Part shown: piece by piece, positions 1,787 through 10,163 of the stretch
How positions within the stretch are numbered: the stretch's first letter is position 1
Layout of the letters: each line of letters begins with the position of its first letter
Source: Chitinophagales bacterium
Lineage (GTDB): Bacteria > Bacteroidota > Bacteroidia > Chitinophagales > CAIOSU01
Assembly: GCA_026003335.1 (NCBI GenBank)
Contig: BPHB01000002.1
Coordinates: 62,001-126,000 of the forward strand
DNA: 64,000 nucleotides
Direction of reading: 5' to 3'
Translations under genes and position numbers: made by a program
The notes under the pieces: generated by a model
What the model was told of the DNA's origin: nothing
The model's input: only the letters and a program-made list of their open reading frames with translations
Databases searched by the model: none

Positions 1787-4700
1787 TCATTGCACGATTA
1801 TCTTAGCCGTAATGTTTCCGGAAGAGGTTATTAACTGAATAAAGTAAGACCCCGCAGGGAATCCGGTTAAATCTACATCCACGGATACATCTGGTAATAG
1901 CAACCTTTTCTGCACCATCAGGCGACCGGTTATATCATAAACTTTTAATGTAACATCGGGTCTCTTCATAGCAGAAATTTCCATCCTGAACCATCCGGAA
2001 GTCGGATTGGGATATACCCTCACAGAGGGGCTTTCCGTACCAGTAATGCCGGTGCAAGACTCCACCCGCACCTGAACAGTTTTAACCTCCGAGCACCCGT
2101 TCATACTGGTTACCTCGTAGGCAAGCACATGCGTTCCTAATCCGGCTACTTTCGGATTAAAAAAGCTGTCATTTGAAATTCCAGGTCCTGACCATGTTCC
2201 CCCTGCGGGAAGCGCATTAATTGCTGAAGGCTGGTCTTCCAGACAATATTGCGGGCTAAGTCCGGAAATGAATATGAAAGGCTTATTTAATACTGTGACC
2301 ATTTGCGTATCGGTACCCACACAGCCATTAGCACCCACATAGGTGTATACAATAGGATAAGGGCCTCCGGCACCGGCAAGGGGAGGGGCAAATGTATTAC
2401 CTGATACACCGGGTCCTGAAAACCGACCTCCTGCAGGATTCCCTTGTAAAACAACCAGCGGTTCATTAAAGCAATATTCCGGTGCAAGATCTACCAGGGA
2501 AGCAGACGGAGCATCATAAATCATAATCTGTATGGTTGTGTCACCCGTACAACCACGACTGTCTGTATAGGTGTATGTAACACTATGCGATCCTAATCCC
2601 GCCTGAATCGGATACAGCAAATTCCCTGAAAAACCATCACCGGTAAAAGTTCCTCCTGACGGTGCAGCGTGCAGTTGAACTGATGGCTGATTGATGCAAA
2701 TATTGCCCGGGTTGATGATTACCGGCTGAGGTGTAGGATAGACCATTCTGACTGCTGAAACAGAACCCGTACACCCGTTGGAATCCATATAGAAATAATG
2801 TATAACAGCCGGGGAAGCGTAATCTACCAATGGCGGCACAAAAACATTTCCCTGCATTTCATTCCCGATAAAGATGCCTCCCGATGGCATACCGGACAAA
2901 GTATCCGGCTGGCTTTCCTCACAATAGTAAGGATCAAGACCCATTATAGACACCATGGGCGGCACGTGTACAGTAACGGTCTGCGACTTGAAGCTGGAAC
3001 AGCCAAGCTGGGTGCGTATGGTGTAGGTTATGGTGTGTACACCCGGTCCTGCATAATAGGATACGAAAGTGTTTCCGCTAATGCCCGGTCCGCTGAAAAT
3101 CCCTCCGGAAGGATTACCAATCAAAACATGCGCAACCGTGTCCGGGCAATATTCAGGCTGTAGCCCTGCAAAACTGACATTTGGCGCAGGAAATATGTTT
3201 GTAGTGTTGCTGTCCGTTGCACTACATCCAAAAGTGTCAGTATATGTATAGAGGATAGTATATTGTCCGGGTGTCAATGAAGCAGGCATGAATACATTAC
3301 CTGTTATGCCGGGTCCGGAAAAGACCCCTCCGGCAGGGAAACCAGTCAATGTATCGGGAAGATTATCATCGCAATAAGAGATATCCAGTCCTGTCATCAT
3401 CACCTGGGGTATATTATGCACCGTCACCAAGACAGCTCCTGTTGCCGTGCAGCCGTTGACATCCGAAGCCGTTAGCTGGTACAAAGTTGTAGCTAAAGGA
3501 GATGCCGGGCGACTGCCTGTGCCCGTTGTAATCACTCCATCACTCCAGCTATACTGAATGCCTCCGGATGCTGTAATAATGACGCTATCCCCTCTGCAGA
3601 TTTCCTCATCAGGGCCGGGAATAACCACCGGCTGCGGATAGATGTTAACCGTCACCGAGTCACTTGCGGAACAGCCATTAAGATCCGTAACCGTTACATG
3701 GTATGTGGTTGAATCGGAGGGAGATACCTGTATAAAAGCCGTTTGCTCCCCGGTGCTCCACGAATAAGCAATGCCGCCGGAAGCTGTAAGCACCGTTGAG
3801 GCTGAGGGGCAAACGGTCTGGTCATTGCCTGCATCAGCTGGTGGCAGCGGCAACACTGTAACGGTGACATCATCCGTTGCGGTGCAACCATCCGCATTGG
3901 TTACCGTTACCGTATAGACGGTAGTCACAGCCGGAGTAACCACAATACCGGAATCTGTGGAGCCTGTGCTCCATGAATAAGATACACCACCGGCTGCAAC
4001 CAGGGTAACTGCTTCTCCCAGACACACAGCAGTGTCAGGTAGTGCCAGTGCCGCAGGAGCAGGCAGAACCGTAGTTTGCAGCGTATCGGCAGCCCAGCAG
4101 CCATTACCATCGGTATATTCATACAGGATCGTACGTGTGCCCCCACCTGCCAGAGAGGGATTGAACATAGTGTAGCCATAGGAATAGAAATTCAGACTCC
4201 ATGTGATCAAACTACCGTCATCACCCGTGAAATTATCGGATATCAAAAGTTTCCATGTACCATTGGGACTGGTGACTCCATCATTCAAGACATTCAGGTC
4301 ATCTCCAATTGTAGAAGAAGCAGTAAATGTGCCACTCAGAGCGGGAGCTACTATGTTACACAAAGCATCATCCATGCTGTTTCCACTGCCGGGAATAATA
4401 CACACATTCAAATCATCTTCAGAAGTGCAGGGCATAGAAGCAAGCACTACCTGAGCGCCAGAAGGTGATTCAAGCACAATATCCAGGTCGCTTACGTAGG
4501 TATGTGCGATTTGAAAACACACACTTTGCAATATGACATCCATGCCCAGTTGCCCCATCAGCCCACTAACGGATAACCCCGAAGTGACAATGGTATCACT
4601 GGGAATATACAGAGGTACCCCCGTTGCAGAAAAAGAAGACGGCCCCATACCAAAGGTTTGTATGCCGGGTCCGGACATTATTCCTCCGGGGGGCGAGCCC

Positions 4701-7684
4701 CTCAGGGTGTCTGCCTGGTCGTTTTCGCAGTATGTTGTACTCAGTCCGCTCAGTGTAACAATAGGCAACGGATTCACCATAACAGTAACCTCGTCACTTT
4801 GCGCACAGCCAAACGTATTTGTACCTGTAACGGAATAAGTATTGGTTACCATAGGCGTGACCTGAACCATAGCTATTGCATCACCTGTACTCCACTGATA
4901 AGAGTCTGCTCCGGTGGCGTTAAGTAGTGCAGGTTTACCTTCACATGTTTCCATATCCGGACCAGCATGTACTGAAGGTAGAGGGTATACAACGGCTGTC
5001 TGTGTTTGATAATTAACGCAGCCATTCACATCAGTGAAAGTATACGTGATTACGTGATTACCCGGGCCAGCAGCTGCCGGATTAAAGGCAAGTATGCCGG
5101 GGATTTCAAATTCAAGGGACCAGGAAAGCAGGAGCCCGTCTTCCATAAACTGATTATCGGCAATGGTCAGTTTCCAGACGCCATTGGGAGATGAGCCATC
5201 GTTCAAGTCATCCAGATCAAACCCCAGCATGGCATTATATACTCCGGACAGCGCAGGGGGTGTAGCACTGCAGGGTGCCAATTCAATGCTGTTTGCGGTT
5301 CCCGGAGTAATACAAACATCCATATCAGCAAGCAACCCGCACAGGTTGGCTGCAAGGGTCACTGTGGCGCCTCCGGGGGATTCCAGAATAAAAGTAAGTT
5401 CACTTATGTGCGGATGATTTACTGAGAAGCAGGCCCGCTTCAGAATAACATCGCTTCCCAGCGCAGAGACCGATGAAAGATTCACAGGCAGATTAAAGAC
5501 ATTACTTACGTTGCTAAAAATATTCTTAAATGTATCCGTGTAGGTCACTTCTACGGGAAAACCTCCTATGCCCGGGCCGCTGAAAATCCCTCCTGATGGT
5601 GTACCTGTAAGTGTGTCGGGCTGATTGTTGGCACACTGTGTAGCATCCAGTCCGGCAAAGGTTACCACCGGCAACGGGTTAACCGTAACCAAAGCAGTAT
5701 CCGATGCCCTACAATTATTATCATCCGTAGCCGTAAATATTAAATTATAAGCTCCCGGAACCGAAGTATGGAATACCGGAGTTGGGGATATGACTGAGGA
5801 GAGGGGGCCTACATCGCCTGTCCATTGGGCAGCAACCACATTACCGGTGCCTGCAGACAGATTCGCATCCAGTGTAAGGGAATTTTGCTGACATACCGTA
5901 GCCGGATCGGGAGTGATATTTACGGAAGGATTTTCGTTGACAACTACAGTAACCACATCGCTGGCCTGACAGTTTTTGGAATCGGTTACTGTGTAGGTCA
6001 GTTGATAGCTGCCCGAAGAGGTGGCATGGAACACAGGATTCACCATACTGTTATCCGACAGGAAACTGTTGGCTCCTGTCCACAGGTGTGTAATGTAGGG
6101 CGGATTACCTCCGGAAGGATTTCCATTCATAAGGCGGCTATCTGATTCACAAAGTTCAATGACATCAGGTGTTATAGCAGCCTGAGGATTGGCGTATACG
6201 GTAACCCAAACGCTATCGGAGGCCTGGCAACCGTTGTCGTCTGTTACGCTATATACCAAAGGGCCAAAATTCCCGGCTATACCCATATTAAAAACCACCG
6301 AGGAATTATTTACCGAAGAAACCAAAGCCACCCCATTCCATTGATGAGCTAGAATCGCAGATGATCCAGCCACCGGATTGCCCTGGAGAGTAATATCATT
6401 AGCTGCACAAACTTCGGGTGATAAAGGCGTAATAACTACTGTAGGAGGCACGTTACGGGTAACCTGCATCACGCATCCTGAGCTGTTGCCTGCTGCATCT
6501 GTCACTGTCCAGTTTACAGCGGTGGTACCGACAGGATATGTGCCGCTGGCATTACTTGTGCCGTTAAAATCGTTTATAAGAGAAGCCACACCGCAATTAT
6601 CCCCGGTTGCCGGCAGCGGAATGATGATGCTGCTATCGCAAACAGGAATAACGATATCAGCTGGACAGGTAATAACGGGGTTTTCTGTATCGGTGATAGT
6701 CACCGTATGAGAGCAGCTAGCGGTATTGCCGCTTAAATCGGTAATAGTCCACCCCACCAGAGTAGTTCCAACCGGATAAAAATCACTGGCATTAGCCGTT
6801 CCATTGAAATTATTTACTATGGACAGGATTCCACAGTTGTCAGAAGTGGCGGGGGCAGGAATTGCCACATTCGCTCCACACATACCGGCATCATTGGGCT
6901 GAGTAATATTCGCAGGGCAGGTAATTACCGGTGACTCAATGTCATTGACGGTGATGGTATGTGAGCAGGTAGCGGTATTATTGCTTACATCGCTAACCGT
7001 CCACGTTAAAATCGTGATACCTTGAGGATACACATCCGTAGCGTCAGCTGTTCCGTTAAAACTGTTGGAAAGCGTAAAAGTCACACAATTATCGGAAGCC
7101 GAAGGCAAGGGCGGACTAACCAGGGCTGAGCATTGCCCTGCATCGGTATTTACTGTGATATCTGCAGAACAGGATATAACCGGTGGTATAGGCTCAAAAA
7201 GATAGAGGTCAAAAGTACCCGTGTCTTCATTAGCTTGATTGAGTACTCCCAGGCGAAGAAGATACGTTGTGCCTGCAGTAACAGACCATGTTACGGAAGA
7301 CTGTAAAATACCGCCTGTTGTATCATCATTGCATGCAATAATTATTCCCGGACAAGGTGCGGTATAGACGGCTATTTTGGTATCAAACAGTGTTCCGCCC
7401 ACAGTTGTAAACATTGCCGTACCATCACAATTGGGAGTGAATGCATACCACACATCACTAAAGATGGTATCATTTCCCCCGCCCGCACAGGCAGGCAGGC
7501 TGCCGCCCCCGTCTGTGTTAGCTCCTCTATTATCAAAGGGTATGTTTTGTCCCGGGTTAATAACGATGGCGTCCAAACAATCATCATTGGAGCCAACAGA
7601 TTTAGCAGTATAAGTTGTTCCGGCAAGGAACAGTATCATCAGTAACCATCTCAATTGATTCATCACGATTGTTTTTAGATGCAT
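1787..7684 (-). CDS. Giant secreted HYR/P-domain repeat protein with T9SS type A sorting domain
   Basis: 1965 residues. Order seen: signal peptide (1-27; Met8 could also be the start), a pre-peptidase-like beta domain (35-165), three HYR domains (about 167-247, 251-332, 335-410; each with PVITCPADI-type starts, SDNCG and FYPVGTTLVxWTVTD), PKD/Ig-like repeats, two proprotein-convertase P-domain-like modules (about 715-860 and 1028-1168, with LESPGGATV and NGTWKLxIxD), further Ig-like repeats, and a T9SS type A sorting domain in the last 85 residues (VRVYPNPTSGWF, then KVYDITGRL). A module with YC, PDTLxGxP and GGxFSGPGIxGN recurs about eight times. HYR and P domains are beta-sandwich adhesion or stabilising modules; export through the outer membrane by T9SS is inferred from the tail. 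The ATG overlaps the upstream gene's stop as TAATG, so the two are probably co-translated. The binding partner is unknown. Confidence 0.93.
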   Translation of the reverse strand: MHLKTIVMNQLRWLLMILFLAGTTYTAKSVGSNDDCLDAIVINPGQNIPFDNRGANTDGGGSLPACAGGGNDTIFSDVWYAFTPNCDGTAMFTTVGGTLFDTKIAVYTAPCPGIIIACNDDTTGGILQSSVTWSVTAGTTYLLRLGVLNQANEDTGTFDLYLFEPIPPVISCSADITVNTDAGQCSALVSPPLPSASDNCVTFTLSNSFNGTADATDVYPQGITILTWTVSDVSNNTATCSHTITVNDIESPVITCPANITQPNDAGMCGANVAIPAPATSDNCGILSIVNNFNGTANASDFYPVGTTLVGWTITDLSGNTASCSHTVTITDTENPVITCPADIVIPVCDSSIIIPLPATGDNCGVASLINDFNGTSNASGTYPVGTTAVNWTVTDAAGNSSGCVMQVTRNVPPTVVITPLSPEVCAANDITLQGNPVAGSSAILAHQWNGVALVSSVNNSSVVFNMGIAGNFGPLVYSVTDDNGCQASDSVWVTVYANPQAAITPDVIELCESDSRLMNGNPSGGNPPYITHLWTGANSFLSDNSMVNPVFHATSSGSYQLTYTVTDSKNCQASDVVTVVVNENPSVNITPDPATVCQQNSLTLDANLSAGTGNVVAAQWTGDVGPLSSVISPTPVFHTSVPGAYNLIFTATDDNNCRASDTALVTVNPLPVVTFAGLDATQCANNQPDTLTGTPSGGIFSGPGIGGFPVEVTYTDTFKNIFSNVSNVFNLPVNLSSVSALGSDVILKRACFSVNHPHISELTFILESPGGATVTLAANLCGLLADMDVCITPGTANSIELAPCSATPPALSGVYNAMLGFDLDDLNDGSSPNGVWKLTIADNQFMEDGLLLSWSLEFEIPGILAFNPAAAGPGNHVITYTFTDVNGCVNYQTQTAVVYPLPSVHAGPDMETCEGKPALLNATGADSYQWSTGDAIAMVQVTPMVTNTYSVTGTNTFGCAQSDEVTVMVNPLPIVTLSGLSTTYCENDQADTLRGSPPGGIMSGPGIQTFGMGPSSFSATGVPLYIPSDTIVTSGLSVSGLMGQLGMDVILQSVCFQIAHTYVSDLDIVLESPSGAQVVLASMPCTSEDDLNVCIIPGSGNSMDDALCNIVAPALSGTFTASSTIGDDLNVLNDGVTSPNGTWKLLISDNFTGDDGSLITWSLNFYSYGYTMFNPSLAGGGTRTILYEYTDGNGCWAADTLQTTVLPAPAALALPDTAVCLGEAVTLVAAGGVSYSWSTGSTDSGIVVTPAVTTVYTVTVTNADGCTATDDVTVTVLPLPPADAGNDQTVCPSASTVLTASGGIAYSWSTGEQTAFIQVSPSDSTTYHVTVTDLNGCSASDSVTVNIYPQPVVIPGPDEEICRGDSVIITASGGIQYSWSDGVITTGTGSRPASPLATTLYQLTASDVNGCTATGAVLVTVHNIPQVMMTGLDISYCDDNLPDTLTGFPAGGVFSGPGITGNVFMPASLTPGQYTILYTYTDTFGCSATDSNTTNIFPAPNVSFAGLQPEYCPDTVAHVLIGNPSGGIFSGPGISGNTFVSYYAGPGVHTITYTIRTQLGCSSFKSQTVTVHVPPMVSIMGLDPYYCEESQPDTLSGMPSGGIFIGNEMQGNVFVPPLVDYASPAVIHYFYMDSNGCTGSVSAVRMVYPTPQPVIINPGNICINQPSVQLHAAPSGGTFTGDGFSGNLLYPIQAGLGSHSVTYTYTDSRGCTGDTTIQIMIYDAPSASLVDLAPEYCFNEPLVVLQGNPAGGRFSGPGVSGNTFAPPLAGAGGPYPIVYTYVGANGCVGTDTQMVTVLNKPFIFISGLSPQYCLEDQPSAINALPAGGTWSGPGISNDSFFNPKVAGLGTHVLAYEVTSMNGCSEVKTVQVRVESCTGITGTESPSVRVYPNPTSGWFRMEISAMKRPDVTLKVYDITGRLMVQKRLLLPDVSVDVDLTGFPAGSYFIQLITSSGNITAKIIVQ

Positions 7685-8334
7685 TAAAATAAATTTCCCT
7701 GTTTTATTATAAAAATGGAATTAAACAATCTGCTATTTGAGGAATCGCGCTCCGAGGGAGGTCCTCCAGAGACAGGTGCAAAAGTAAGGGAGACGAATTC
7801 CAGCGTTCCTTTGTCGGCAGGATAATTATCACAGATAATCAGCGACCACATGCCGTTGGGATCAGAGCCGTCATTAAAAGTATCCAGATTATCATCGGGG
7901 GTGAACCTACCAATAAACGGTGGATCATGGAGGGAAAGTGAACCCGCCGGGGCTTCGCGCACGAAAGAAACCGTCTGCCGGCAGCGACTGTCATCAGGGT
8001 TTCCGTAGTTATTCCTGTATCCCCCATGGGCTGAAGCCAGGGTTATTGTTTTGCCCGCAGGCGATCGCAATTGGATTTCCAGGTCGGAAGTAAATGAATG
8101 CCGGATAATGAGCCCCACTTCTTGCAATACAATATCAATACCCAGCTGGAAACCCACCGCATCCCGCACTTCAAAGGAATAGACCATTGGATGTTCGCAG
8201 GAGTTATCCGGGATGCTCACACTCATGCCACAAGGCGAAGTATATGTTTGCGCCTTTACGGAAAGGAAGACCAATAAGAAAAAAAACAGCGTCCCCACTC
8301 CCGATATAGGAAAAATACTACCGGTCACGTGCAA
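7684..8334 (-). CDS. Small secreted P-domain protein
   Basis: About 216 residues. A hydrophobic signal segment (GTLFFFLLVFLSVKAQ) is followed by one proprotein-convertase P-domain-like module over most of the protein: IVLQEVGLIIRHSFTSDLEI, LRSPAGKTITLAS, FNDGSDPNGMWSLIICDN. This module closely resembles the two P-like modules of the downstream giant protein, and the stop overlaps that gene's ATG (TAATG), so they are probably one operon. There is no ATG before the signal peptide; the start is TTG at 8334 or GTG at 8328, with an in-frame stop just upstream. There is no T9SS tail: the protein ends in a short basic segment, so it may be periplasmic or a degenerate copy. Function is unknown. Confidence 0.8.
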   Translation of the reverse strand: MHVTGSIFPISGVGTLFFFLLVFLSVKAQTYTSPCGMSVSIPDNSCEHPMVYSFEVRDAVGFQLGIDIVLQEVGLIIRHSFTSDLEIQLRSPAGKTITLASAHGGYRNNYGNPDDSRCRQTVSFVREAPAGSLSLHDPPFIGRFTPDDNLDTFNDGSDPNGMWSLIICDNYPADKGTLEFVSLTFAPVSGGPPSERDSSNSRLFNSIFIIKQGNLF

Positions 8335-8558: not shown

Positions 8559-10163
8559 ATGGTCTTTTTTGTTTTTATTGCCACAAGCATGGCTGCAGCC
8601 AAAAGCCAGAGCACATTCCGGCTTATTTATGATTTGTTTCGGGCAAACTGTTCCAGTGGGGGATGTCACGTTTCTGCATCTAATCCGATATTCAATGCAG
8701 AGGGCAGCGAAAGTGATCTTTATGCGAGTCTGGTAAACGCATTGCCGGTAAATCCAACGGCCCGAGCAAAGGGATACAAACTGGTTGACCCGGGACATCC
8801 CTATAACAGCTTTCTGCTATACAAAATAGGAAGTGATTTAGACCCCTATCTGACTTTAGGGCCTGAATTTGGCGAGCGTACGCCTCAGGCTCACAGCACG
8901 CTGAACGACTACGATATTGAGCTGGTACGTCAGTGGATACTGATGGGAGCGCCTCAAACAGGCAACAAAGTGAATTATCCTCTTCTGGTGGAGTATTATA
9001 CCCAGGGAGGCTTTGATATGCTTCCCATTCCTGCAACGCCTTCACCATTAGAAGGCATGCAGGTGCGTGTTGGCCCCATATTTCTGGCCCCCGGGGAGGA
9101 AGTGGAGTGGGATATAAAGCAACACCTTCGCAATCAGAATACACTGAAAGTGTATCGCACGGAGGGTTTTATGTCGTGGCAGTCGCATCATATGCTGCTT
9201 TTTAAATACAACGGTGATGGCTCTGGTGTACGGGAAGGATTAAGGCGGGTACCCACCGAAGCTTTCCCATTCAATGGTGATGTAACGCTTACCGGAGCAT
9301 GGCAGAATGATGATGACTTTATTCTTCCGGAAGGCACAGCCTTTTTCTGGAGGCCCAATACAGTTCTGGACTTTGATTATCATATTAAAAACTATAGCAA
9401 CACCGAAATCCTTCCGTCTGATTTTTATCTGAACATTTATTTTGACACCAGCAACACACGGAATATAGAGATGCATGCCAAGCTGGTAAATAATGCTGCC
9501 CTGCTGTTGTTCCGGGGCGACAACTCGCGTGTAGCCAGCGAAAACTTCCATGAAGACCGCTATATCTACATGATGTCATCTCATCTTCATAAATGGGGCA
9601 CCGACTTTGATGTGTATCTGAAAAATGCAGACGGCTCACGCGGAGCTCAGATTTACGAGGGTTTCTTTAATGAAGATTACTCTTTCAATCAGGGATATTA
9701 TGACTGGGAGCATCCTCCCATCCGCTATTTTAACCCGATGCCGAAAGCCAGCTACGGACTTGAATACACTGCCCGGTGGAATGTAGGAGTGCCCTTTGTA
9801 ACTTTCGGGCTCACAGCCGATGATGAAATGATGTTATTTACTTACCTCTACACTAAAGAGGAGGTACCGCAATTGCCGGCCGCATCGCCTGAAAGAGTTG
9901 AGAGCTCACAGATAACTTTAAGCCCTAATCCTTTTACAACCGGTTTCCATGTTGATCTGCACCTGGATCATGCAGCAAAAACTACGATTGAGTTACGTGA
10001 CGTGCCGGGTAAGAAAATCATGACACATGAGTGTGGCCTGCTCCAACCGGGTAATCATCAGATGTGGATATCTTCTGAACTCATGCCCTTCAGCGGAATT
10101 TACTTTGTTATCATCAGAATAAACGGTGAAGCAGTTAAGACCGAGAAGATTACAAAAATATAA
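8559..10163 (+). CDS. Secreted copper type II monooxygenase-like protein with cytochrome-like N-terminus and T9SS tail
   Basis: 534 residues. A short signal-like segment (1-16) is followed by a cytochrome-like module (about 20-132) with C31-x4-C36-H37 and the VDPGHPYNSFLLYKI and YDIELVRQWILMGAP motifs of Planctomycete-type cytochromes. Residues about 160-435 resemble peptidylglycine alpha-hydroxylating monooxygenase (PHM). All six copper ligands can be matched by motif: H210 and H211 (SHHMLLF), H275, H342 and H344 (SSHLHKWG), and M424 (DDEMM). The C-terminus is a T9SS type A sorting domain (LSPNPFTTGF onward, residues 453-534). The expected distal Met of the cytochrome module (RMP) is Thr (GERTPQ). 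The predicted reaction is ascorbate- or electron-dependent hydroxylation at the cell surface; the substrate is unknown. Start: the only in-frame ATG after the stop at 8490. It is convergent with the DivIC-like gene. Confidence 0.88.
   Translation: MVFFVFIATSMAAAKSQSTFRLIYDLFRANCSSGGCHVSASNPIFNAEGSESDLYASLVNALPVNPTARAKGYKLVDPGHPYNSFLLYKIGSDLDPYLTLGPEFGERTPQAHSTLNDYDIELVRQWILMGAPQTGNKVNYPLLVEYYTQGGFDMLPIPATPSPLEGMQVRVGPIFLAPGEEVEWDIKQHLRNQNTLKVYRTEGFMSWQSHHMLLFKYNGDGSGVREGLRRVPTEAFPFNGDVTLTGAWQNDDDFILPEGTAFFWRPNTVLDFDYHIKNYSNTEILPSDFYLNIYFDTSNTRNIEMHAKLVNNAALLLFRGDNSRVASENFHEDRYIYMMSSHLHKWGTDFDVYLKNADGSRGAQIYEGFFNEDYSFNQGYYDWEHPPIRYFNPMPKASYGLEYTARWNVGVPFVTFGLTADDEMMLFTYLYTKEEVPQLPAASPERVESSQITLSPNPFTTGFHVDLHLDHAAKTTIELRDVPGKKIMTHECGLLQPGNHQMWISSELMPFSGIYFVIIRINGEAVKTEKITKI

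Follow-up and report, generated by a model that had tools for sequence, protein, structure and literature searches.

The copper monooxygenases closest to the protein described here are PHM (rat; PDB 1phm and 6ala) and DBH (human; PDB 4zel). The animal enzymes of this PHM/DBM family, which produce peptide hormones and noradrenaline, depend on ascorbate, their copper sites consume two electrons together with O2, and DBH uses a DOMON domain in addition to ascorbate. PHM contains several disulfides, and its residues Arg240, Asn316 and Tyr318 are, as we assume, those that bind the carboxylate of the peptide substrate. To our knowledge, bacteria generally do not make ascorbate. Copper sites supplied by a heme domain occur in NirK-cytochrome c fusions and in cellobiose dehydrogenase working with LPMO, and the copper folds of these systems are different ones. 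On the heme side, the closest described relative is hydrazine synthase alpha, for which we know of no copper domain. A fusion of cytochrome c to PHM was not described in the titles or abstract openings among the matches listed, and may be described elsewhere.

The gene in question occupies positions 8559 to 10163 (+ strand) of the window, the 64,000-nucleotide stretch of DNA that we analysed. Its open reading frame of 534 residues is intact and agrees with the first-pass annotation, and the residues singled out there (C31-x4-C36-H37, GERTPQ at 105-110, H210, H211, H275, H342, H344 and M424) are all found at the numbers given. The protein consists of a c-type cytochrome domain (residues ~18-150; 8610..9008), the tandem domains of a PHM/DBM-type copper monooxygenase (155-437; 9021..9869) and a type A T9SS C-terminal sorting domain (445-534; 9891..10160). 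This architecture, together with the ligands and the fold, is supported by sequence and by an AlphaFold model with a mean pLDDT of 90.2 and a pTM of 0.80. Residues 1-17 (8559..8609) form a putative N-terminal export signal region, as judged by inspection. The start codon is uncertain and no positive charge precedes the hydrophobic stretch, while the N-termini of relatives are longer and signal-like, with AQ or SQ at the end in most of them. Upstream, a 1965-residue frame (1787-7684) has, by eye, repeated adhesin-like domains and an end that resembles a sorting tail. A 216-residue ORF on the opposite strand (7684-8334) immediately precedes the copper monooxygenase gene. Enolase, carA and ribosomal genes were recognised by eye downstream. 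Inspection by eye of the ORFs neighbouring the gene in the window revealed no redox partner.

The first-pass annotation had matched all six copper ligands of PHM and named structure prediction as a way to check them, and the predicted structure bears out the PHM-type fold. The model has the tandem beta-sandwich fold of PHM at residues 155-437; in a domain model, the heme domain before it is small and helical (pLDDT 85.7), with weak fold matches. In Foldseek searches with the model of the whole protein the best match was PHM (8dsl_A, E = 5.9e-12), and the first 31 matches were all PHM and DBH. VIA-align superimposed 256 residues on PHM 6ala_C, which has the same two-domain fold (Z = 22.5, rmsd 3.0), at 13% identity, and 259 residues on the copper core of DBH (Z = 20.9); entries below PHM and DBH begin at Z = 11.3 and pertain to the sorting tail. 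The candidate ligands are nearly invariant in a 105-row alignment of the family: H210 and H211 (9186..9191) and H275 (9381..9383), the CuH ligands, are His in all 101 rows that reach them, H342 and H344 of the CuM site (H342-L-H344, 9582..9590) in 102 of 102, and M424 of the DEM motif, the CuM methionine (9828..9830), is Met in 103 of 104. The sole exception, a Leu, comes from L036, a 272-residue paralogue without a copper domain. When 203 rows were aligned by a faster method, nine had Val at column 210, but all nine read VHH, so the His pair is present and the Val is a one-column alignment slip. Conservation of the named copper and heme residues is thus far above chance, and the sequence contains the full set of three His for CuH and His/His/Met for CuM.

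Sequence comparison links the query to PHM less directly. The query alone matched no copper-monooxygenase model in Pfam, and a copper-domain-only profile made from 41 of 73 full-length rows had no match among PDB sequences, whereas a full-protein profile reached PHM at E of about 0.03. The copper domains of 24 of these 41 relatives matched PF03712 at E up to 0.1 (best 1.4e-6). For a bridge, we compared the copper-domain family by hhalign with Bacteroidota PF03712 proteins, whose profile was built from 26 of 30 motif-bearing loci; the two aligned over 268 columns at E = 1.3e-41 and 12% identity, and HH, the lone His, HxH and DEM line up between them. In profile comparisons the same PF03712 proteins matched human DBH (E = 2e-17) as well as PHM (E = 2e-10), and through them the His3 and His2Met ligand sets of PHM and the query fall in register. 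Since the copper-domain-only profile matched nothing in the PDB, the sequence link to PHM rests on the full profile and the PF03712 bridge, and the ligand assignment is sound by sequence register, as distinct from metal geometry.

By analogy with PHM and DBM, the copper domain would carry out O2-dependent hydroxylation with two copper ions. Its residues do not point to a peptidylglycine enzyme. In our register, PHM Arg240, Asn316 and Tyr318 fall on S340, L426 and T428 of the query, in columns that vary within the family. Cysteines occur in the query only at positions 31, 36 and 492, so that, unlike disulfide-bearing PHM, the copper domain (155-437) has none. PHM also differs from the query in having neither the fused cytochrome nor the sorting tail, and where DBH has its DOMON domain, the query has a cytochrome c domain. 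The query departs from residues common in its relatives at L343, Y337, F318 and K197; between the two CuM histidines, Thr is found in 70 of the 73 rows, Ala in two and Leu in the query alone.

The N-terminal module had been read as carrying covalent heme on the basis of C31-x4-C36-H37 (8649..8669), and its relatives lend this reading good support. In the 105-row alignment C31 is Cys in all 100 covering rows, C36 in 100 of 101, and H37 is His in 99 of 101. We derived spacings from the 73-row set of full-length rows with C31 and H210 (74 found; L096 and L099 omitted), in which these two residues are invariant by construction, the counts above being the unselected ones. CX2CH occurs in 32 of these rows, CX3CH in 26 and CX4CH in 15; because all three sit at the same place, the CX4CH of the query is a spacing variant of the canonical motif. 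Covalent attachment of heme at C31 and C36 is therefore well supported by sequence. The genome has two matches over cut-off to PF01578 (cytochrome c assembly), so the attachment machinery appears to be present, and attachment itself is presumed.

The fold of the heme domain is less sharply defined. The query's own fragment matched neither PF13442, PF07635 nor any other Pfam cytochrome model, but among 71 heme domains of members (L111 and L112 left out) PF13442 was matched in 46 (best 6.5e-7) and PF07635 in 34, at E up to 0.1. Foldseek returned four chains, all weak, with E = 2.4 at best; two belong to hydrazine synthase alpha, the others to fructose dehydrogenase and an unrelated kinase. VIA-align, which aligned 11 chains and returned two entries, placed the C-terminal cytochrome domain of hydrazine synthase alpha (PDB 5c2v) at Z = 6.4 (rmsd 3.6, 105 residues) and FoxE at Z = 6.0, values under 8 that may reflect no more than a common arrangement. 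A sequence profile of the heme domain likewise retrieved FoxE and hydrazine synthase alpha first, at E of about 0.006; cytochromes c6 and a subunit of cytochrome oxidase came next. Hydrazine synthase alpha is thus the best, if weak, structural neighbour of the query heme domain among the chains aligned, and other cytochrome folds may fit as well.

The usual distal loop in the family is EGxxMP, and the absence of its Met from the GERTPQ segment of the query, as first annotated, holds. The accompanying idea of a simple loss, in which RMP had changed to RTP, is not supported by the relatives. We examined 184 rows (203 minus 18 that did not fit the domain-cutting pattern, and minus L221), of which 154 have the distal Met and 30, the query among them, lack it. 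Within the columns of query positions 104-114, 25 of the 30 have a His, four a Cys and one (L105) neither. His or Cys is thus found in the distal loop of 29 of 30 non-Met rows as against nine of 154 Met rows (Fisher 9e-25, kinship uncorrected). A tree built only from copper-domain sequences, with 181 rows counted (two rows were too short and L105 had no state), requires 11 changes between His and not-His. Among 11 independent pairs on supported branches, an average of 8.9 spoke for exchange of Met for another ligand, 0.0 against it and 2.0 showed no difference (median p = 0.004, range 0.002-0.07).

E-x4-H or E-x5-H occurs in 21 of the 25 His-class rows, and any E-x3-H to E-x5-H in just one of the 154 Met-class rows. 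The query reads E106-RTPQA-H112 (8874..8894), and since E106-x5-H112 fits the His-class pattern, the Thr of RTP is probably part of the loop and not a mutated ligand. L033, the closest paralogue in the same genome, has ESDNKH at the distal loop and joins the query on a branch with support 97, so that both have a loop His. Counting against H112 is its position 14 residues before W126, as 19 of the 25 replacement histidines stand 16-18 residues before it. A parallel comes from hydrazine synthase alpha, whose EGRLLH aligns with the family EGxxMP in the sequence profile, giving E-x4-H where the query has E-x5-H. The His of EGRLLH is presumably His772, the second heme ligand of that protein, an assignment that agrees with the numbering offset from His689. 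According to the published description, heme alphaII of hydrazine synthase is bis-His, with His689 as a ligand and a midpoint of about -330 mV (PMC12607021). Judged by the His/Met ligation of class I cytochromes c, the query has no Met at the distal loop; H112 is probably its distal ligand, making a bis-His heme, which would therefore probably have a lower potential. The first-pass annotation had left three outcomes open: a heme that is five-coordinate, uses another ligand or is lost. The second is the probable one, a five-coordinate heme being less likely given the His/Cys pattern of the non-Met rows, and loss is taken up below. A far longer relative, L222 (open frame of 1222 residues), has TDPNHAGL where the Met loop would be expected.

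Matches to the query were found in 71 of 99 genomes searched (its own included), many of the weak ones being to the sorting tail only. Of 396 genomes from the order, 101 (again including its own) contained the family by a heme-domain profile at E up to 1e-12. A genome-contig scan with a 7-row alignment turned up 66 named loci, whose titles include Chitinophagales, Saprospiraceae, Sphingobacteriales, Flavobacteriales and unplaced Bacteroidetes; a 28-row profile, too varied to serve for that scan, found no relative in viral contigs. The query's own genome has several family members, namely L033 (49% identical to the query), L034, L035 and L036, and the more distant L001/L037 and L002/L038. In L035 (L035:8169-9659 and C2:1043564-1043827) the heme and copper parts lie in different frames, which indicates either a broken gene or an assembly error. 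L036 (L036:8013-8828; C1:1019015-1019725) is a 272-residue frame with the cytochrome domain (CX4CH, MPDGQ) and a sorting-tail-like end but without the copper domain, and is possibly a surface electron carrier. L001/L037:7398-9008 is a cytochrome-copper fusion over the PF03712 cut-off with a sorting-tail-like end, and L038:6428-9565 is another such fusion, under the cut-off. Inspection by eye of gene neighbours at 86 loci revealed tandem family copies, SUF-type neighbours in 10 and a small, divergently transcribed HMA-type protein in six. The latter (L083:7352-7861, also L055, L056, L060, L072 and L115) is lipoprotein-like, has a heavy-metal-binding MTCxxGC by eye and lies beside tandem family pairs. 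Since no partner is common to the 86 loci, no operon argument can be made.

An exported copper hydroxylase with its own reductant had been expected to be unusual; its joined design is in fact common. In a sample of 296 Bacteroidota genomes, 29 had PF03712 matches, and we considered 31 loci (L001, L002, L119-L147), 27 over the Pfam cut-off and four under it (L002, L144, L145, L146); two of 32 matches had no locus and were left out of the count. A CX2-4CH motif lies upstream of the copper domain in the same frame in 30 of the 31, among them L146, which carries an HQH, and the remaining locus, L141, starts at a contig end. Such regular fusion is what one would expect of a heme that serves the copper. 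These proteins share the cytochrome-copper order with the query but differ from its family in sequence (12% identity between the groups) and often in the tail: in 13 of the 30 the frame stops directly behind the copper domain, and thus without a sorting tail, whereas 14 continue for 95-112 residues, the extension of L001 being judged sorting-tail-like by eye. A plasmid search with one PF03712 protein retrieved a single distant actinobacterial match.

The T9SS tail proposed for the query is supported by TIGR04183 (25.7 bits, cut-off 23), while PF18962 stays below its cut-off (18.9 versus 27). VIA-align matched the tail to PorU (Z = 11.3) and to the CTDs of mirolase (10.3) and NucA (9.5). The fold match is unspecific, in that unrelated beta-sandwich proteins reach Z = 9.5-10.2 on this region, and the assignment therefore leans on the sequence model. 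The genome encodes SprA and PorV-family proteins, and from tail and T9SS genes together the query is predicted to be a type A T9SS substrate exported to the surface.

Taken together, sequence and model make it reasonably probable that the query is a surface-exported PHM/DBM-fold copper monooxygenase that receives electrons through its own c-type cytochrome, with H112 as the probable distal ligand. In such a scenario, heme would be attached to C31 and C36 once the protein is across the inner membrane, and the T9SS would carry the protein to the cell surface. There an outside donor, for which the surface-cytochrome candidate L036 could qualify, would reduce the heme one electron at a time. The heme would hand these electrons to CuH and CuM, replacing ascorbate as the direct reductant, and CuM would activate O2 for hydroxylation of the substrate, as in PHM/DBM chemistry. 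Reduction of the copper site by the fused heme is plausible on this reading, but the heme merely relays electrons and another donor must supply them.

Alternatively, the query may be a genuine PHM-type copper enzyme whose heme domain serves for docking, folding or sensing while an external small molecule reduces the copper. This is unlikely in our estimate, although two relatives speak for it. At locus L096:7860-9980 the heme motif is lost along with the distal Met but all six copper ligands are kept, and therefore heme is not indispensable there; L036 joins the family cytochrome to a sorting tail without a copper domain, and the cytochrome therefore has uses of its own. Yet 30 of 31 PF03712-matching loci retain the heme motif in the same frame, and with another good ligand in 29 of the 30 rows that lack the distal Met, heme ligation seems to matter. 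L096 also shows what a true loss of heme looks like, with motif and Met gone, and the query does not resemble it. That the query itself is a decaying paralogue, having lost heme ligation or activity, we regard as decidedly improbable: it does depart from its relatives at well-conserved positions, and its genome contains the split paralogue L035, but its frame is intact, it keeps all six copper ligands as well as C31, C36 and H37 of the heme motif, and its distal-loop His is common to its sister L033 across the well-supported branch.

Nothing in the sequence fixes the direction of electron flow, and surface cytochromes often transport electrons outward, which leaves room for the reverse arrangement, where a substrate is oxidised at the copper site and its electrons leave through the cytochrome. 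We consider it very improbable, as PHM and DBM sites use two electrons plus O2, and a bis-His heme, if as low in potential as hydrazine synthase alphaII (about -330 mV, as cited above), would favour donation to copper.

Returning to the cytochrome as relay to the copper site, the family-wide data invite a broader and more tentative proposal, for which we would give a little short of an even chance: that in Bacteroidota the PHM/DBM-type monooxygenases make up a class which works without ascorbate and is wired by a cytochrome c in the same chain, with many members on the surface, with the driving potential retuned in evolution by repeated Met/His/Cys exchange at the distal heme position, and with the query as a low-potential, His-type member. 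A single-chain system of this kind would let electron transfer from heme to copper be tracked by colour, and with Met, His and Cys all occurring naturally at the distal heme site of one scaffold, one could measure how the potential of the heme influences copper-oxygen chemistry. The presence of a cytochrome on the same chain in nearly every PF03712-matching Bacteroidota protein that we considered offers an answer to the question of what reduces the bacterial enzymes. The joined cytochrome-copper design, common in related bacteria, thus suggests how such enzymes could get their electrons without vitamin C.
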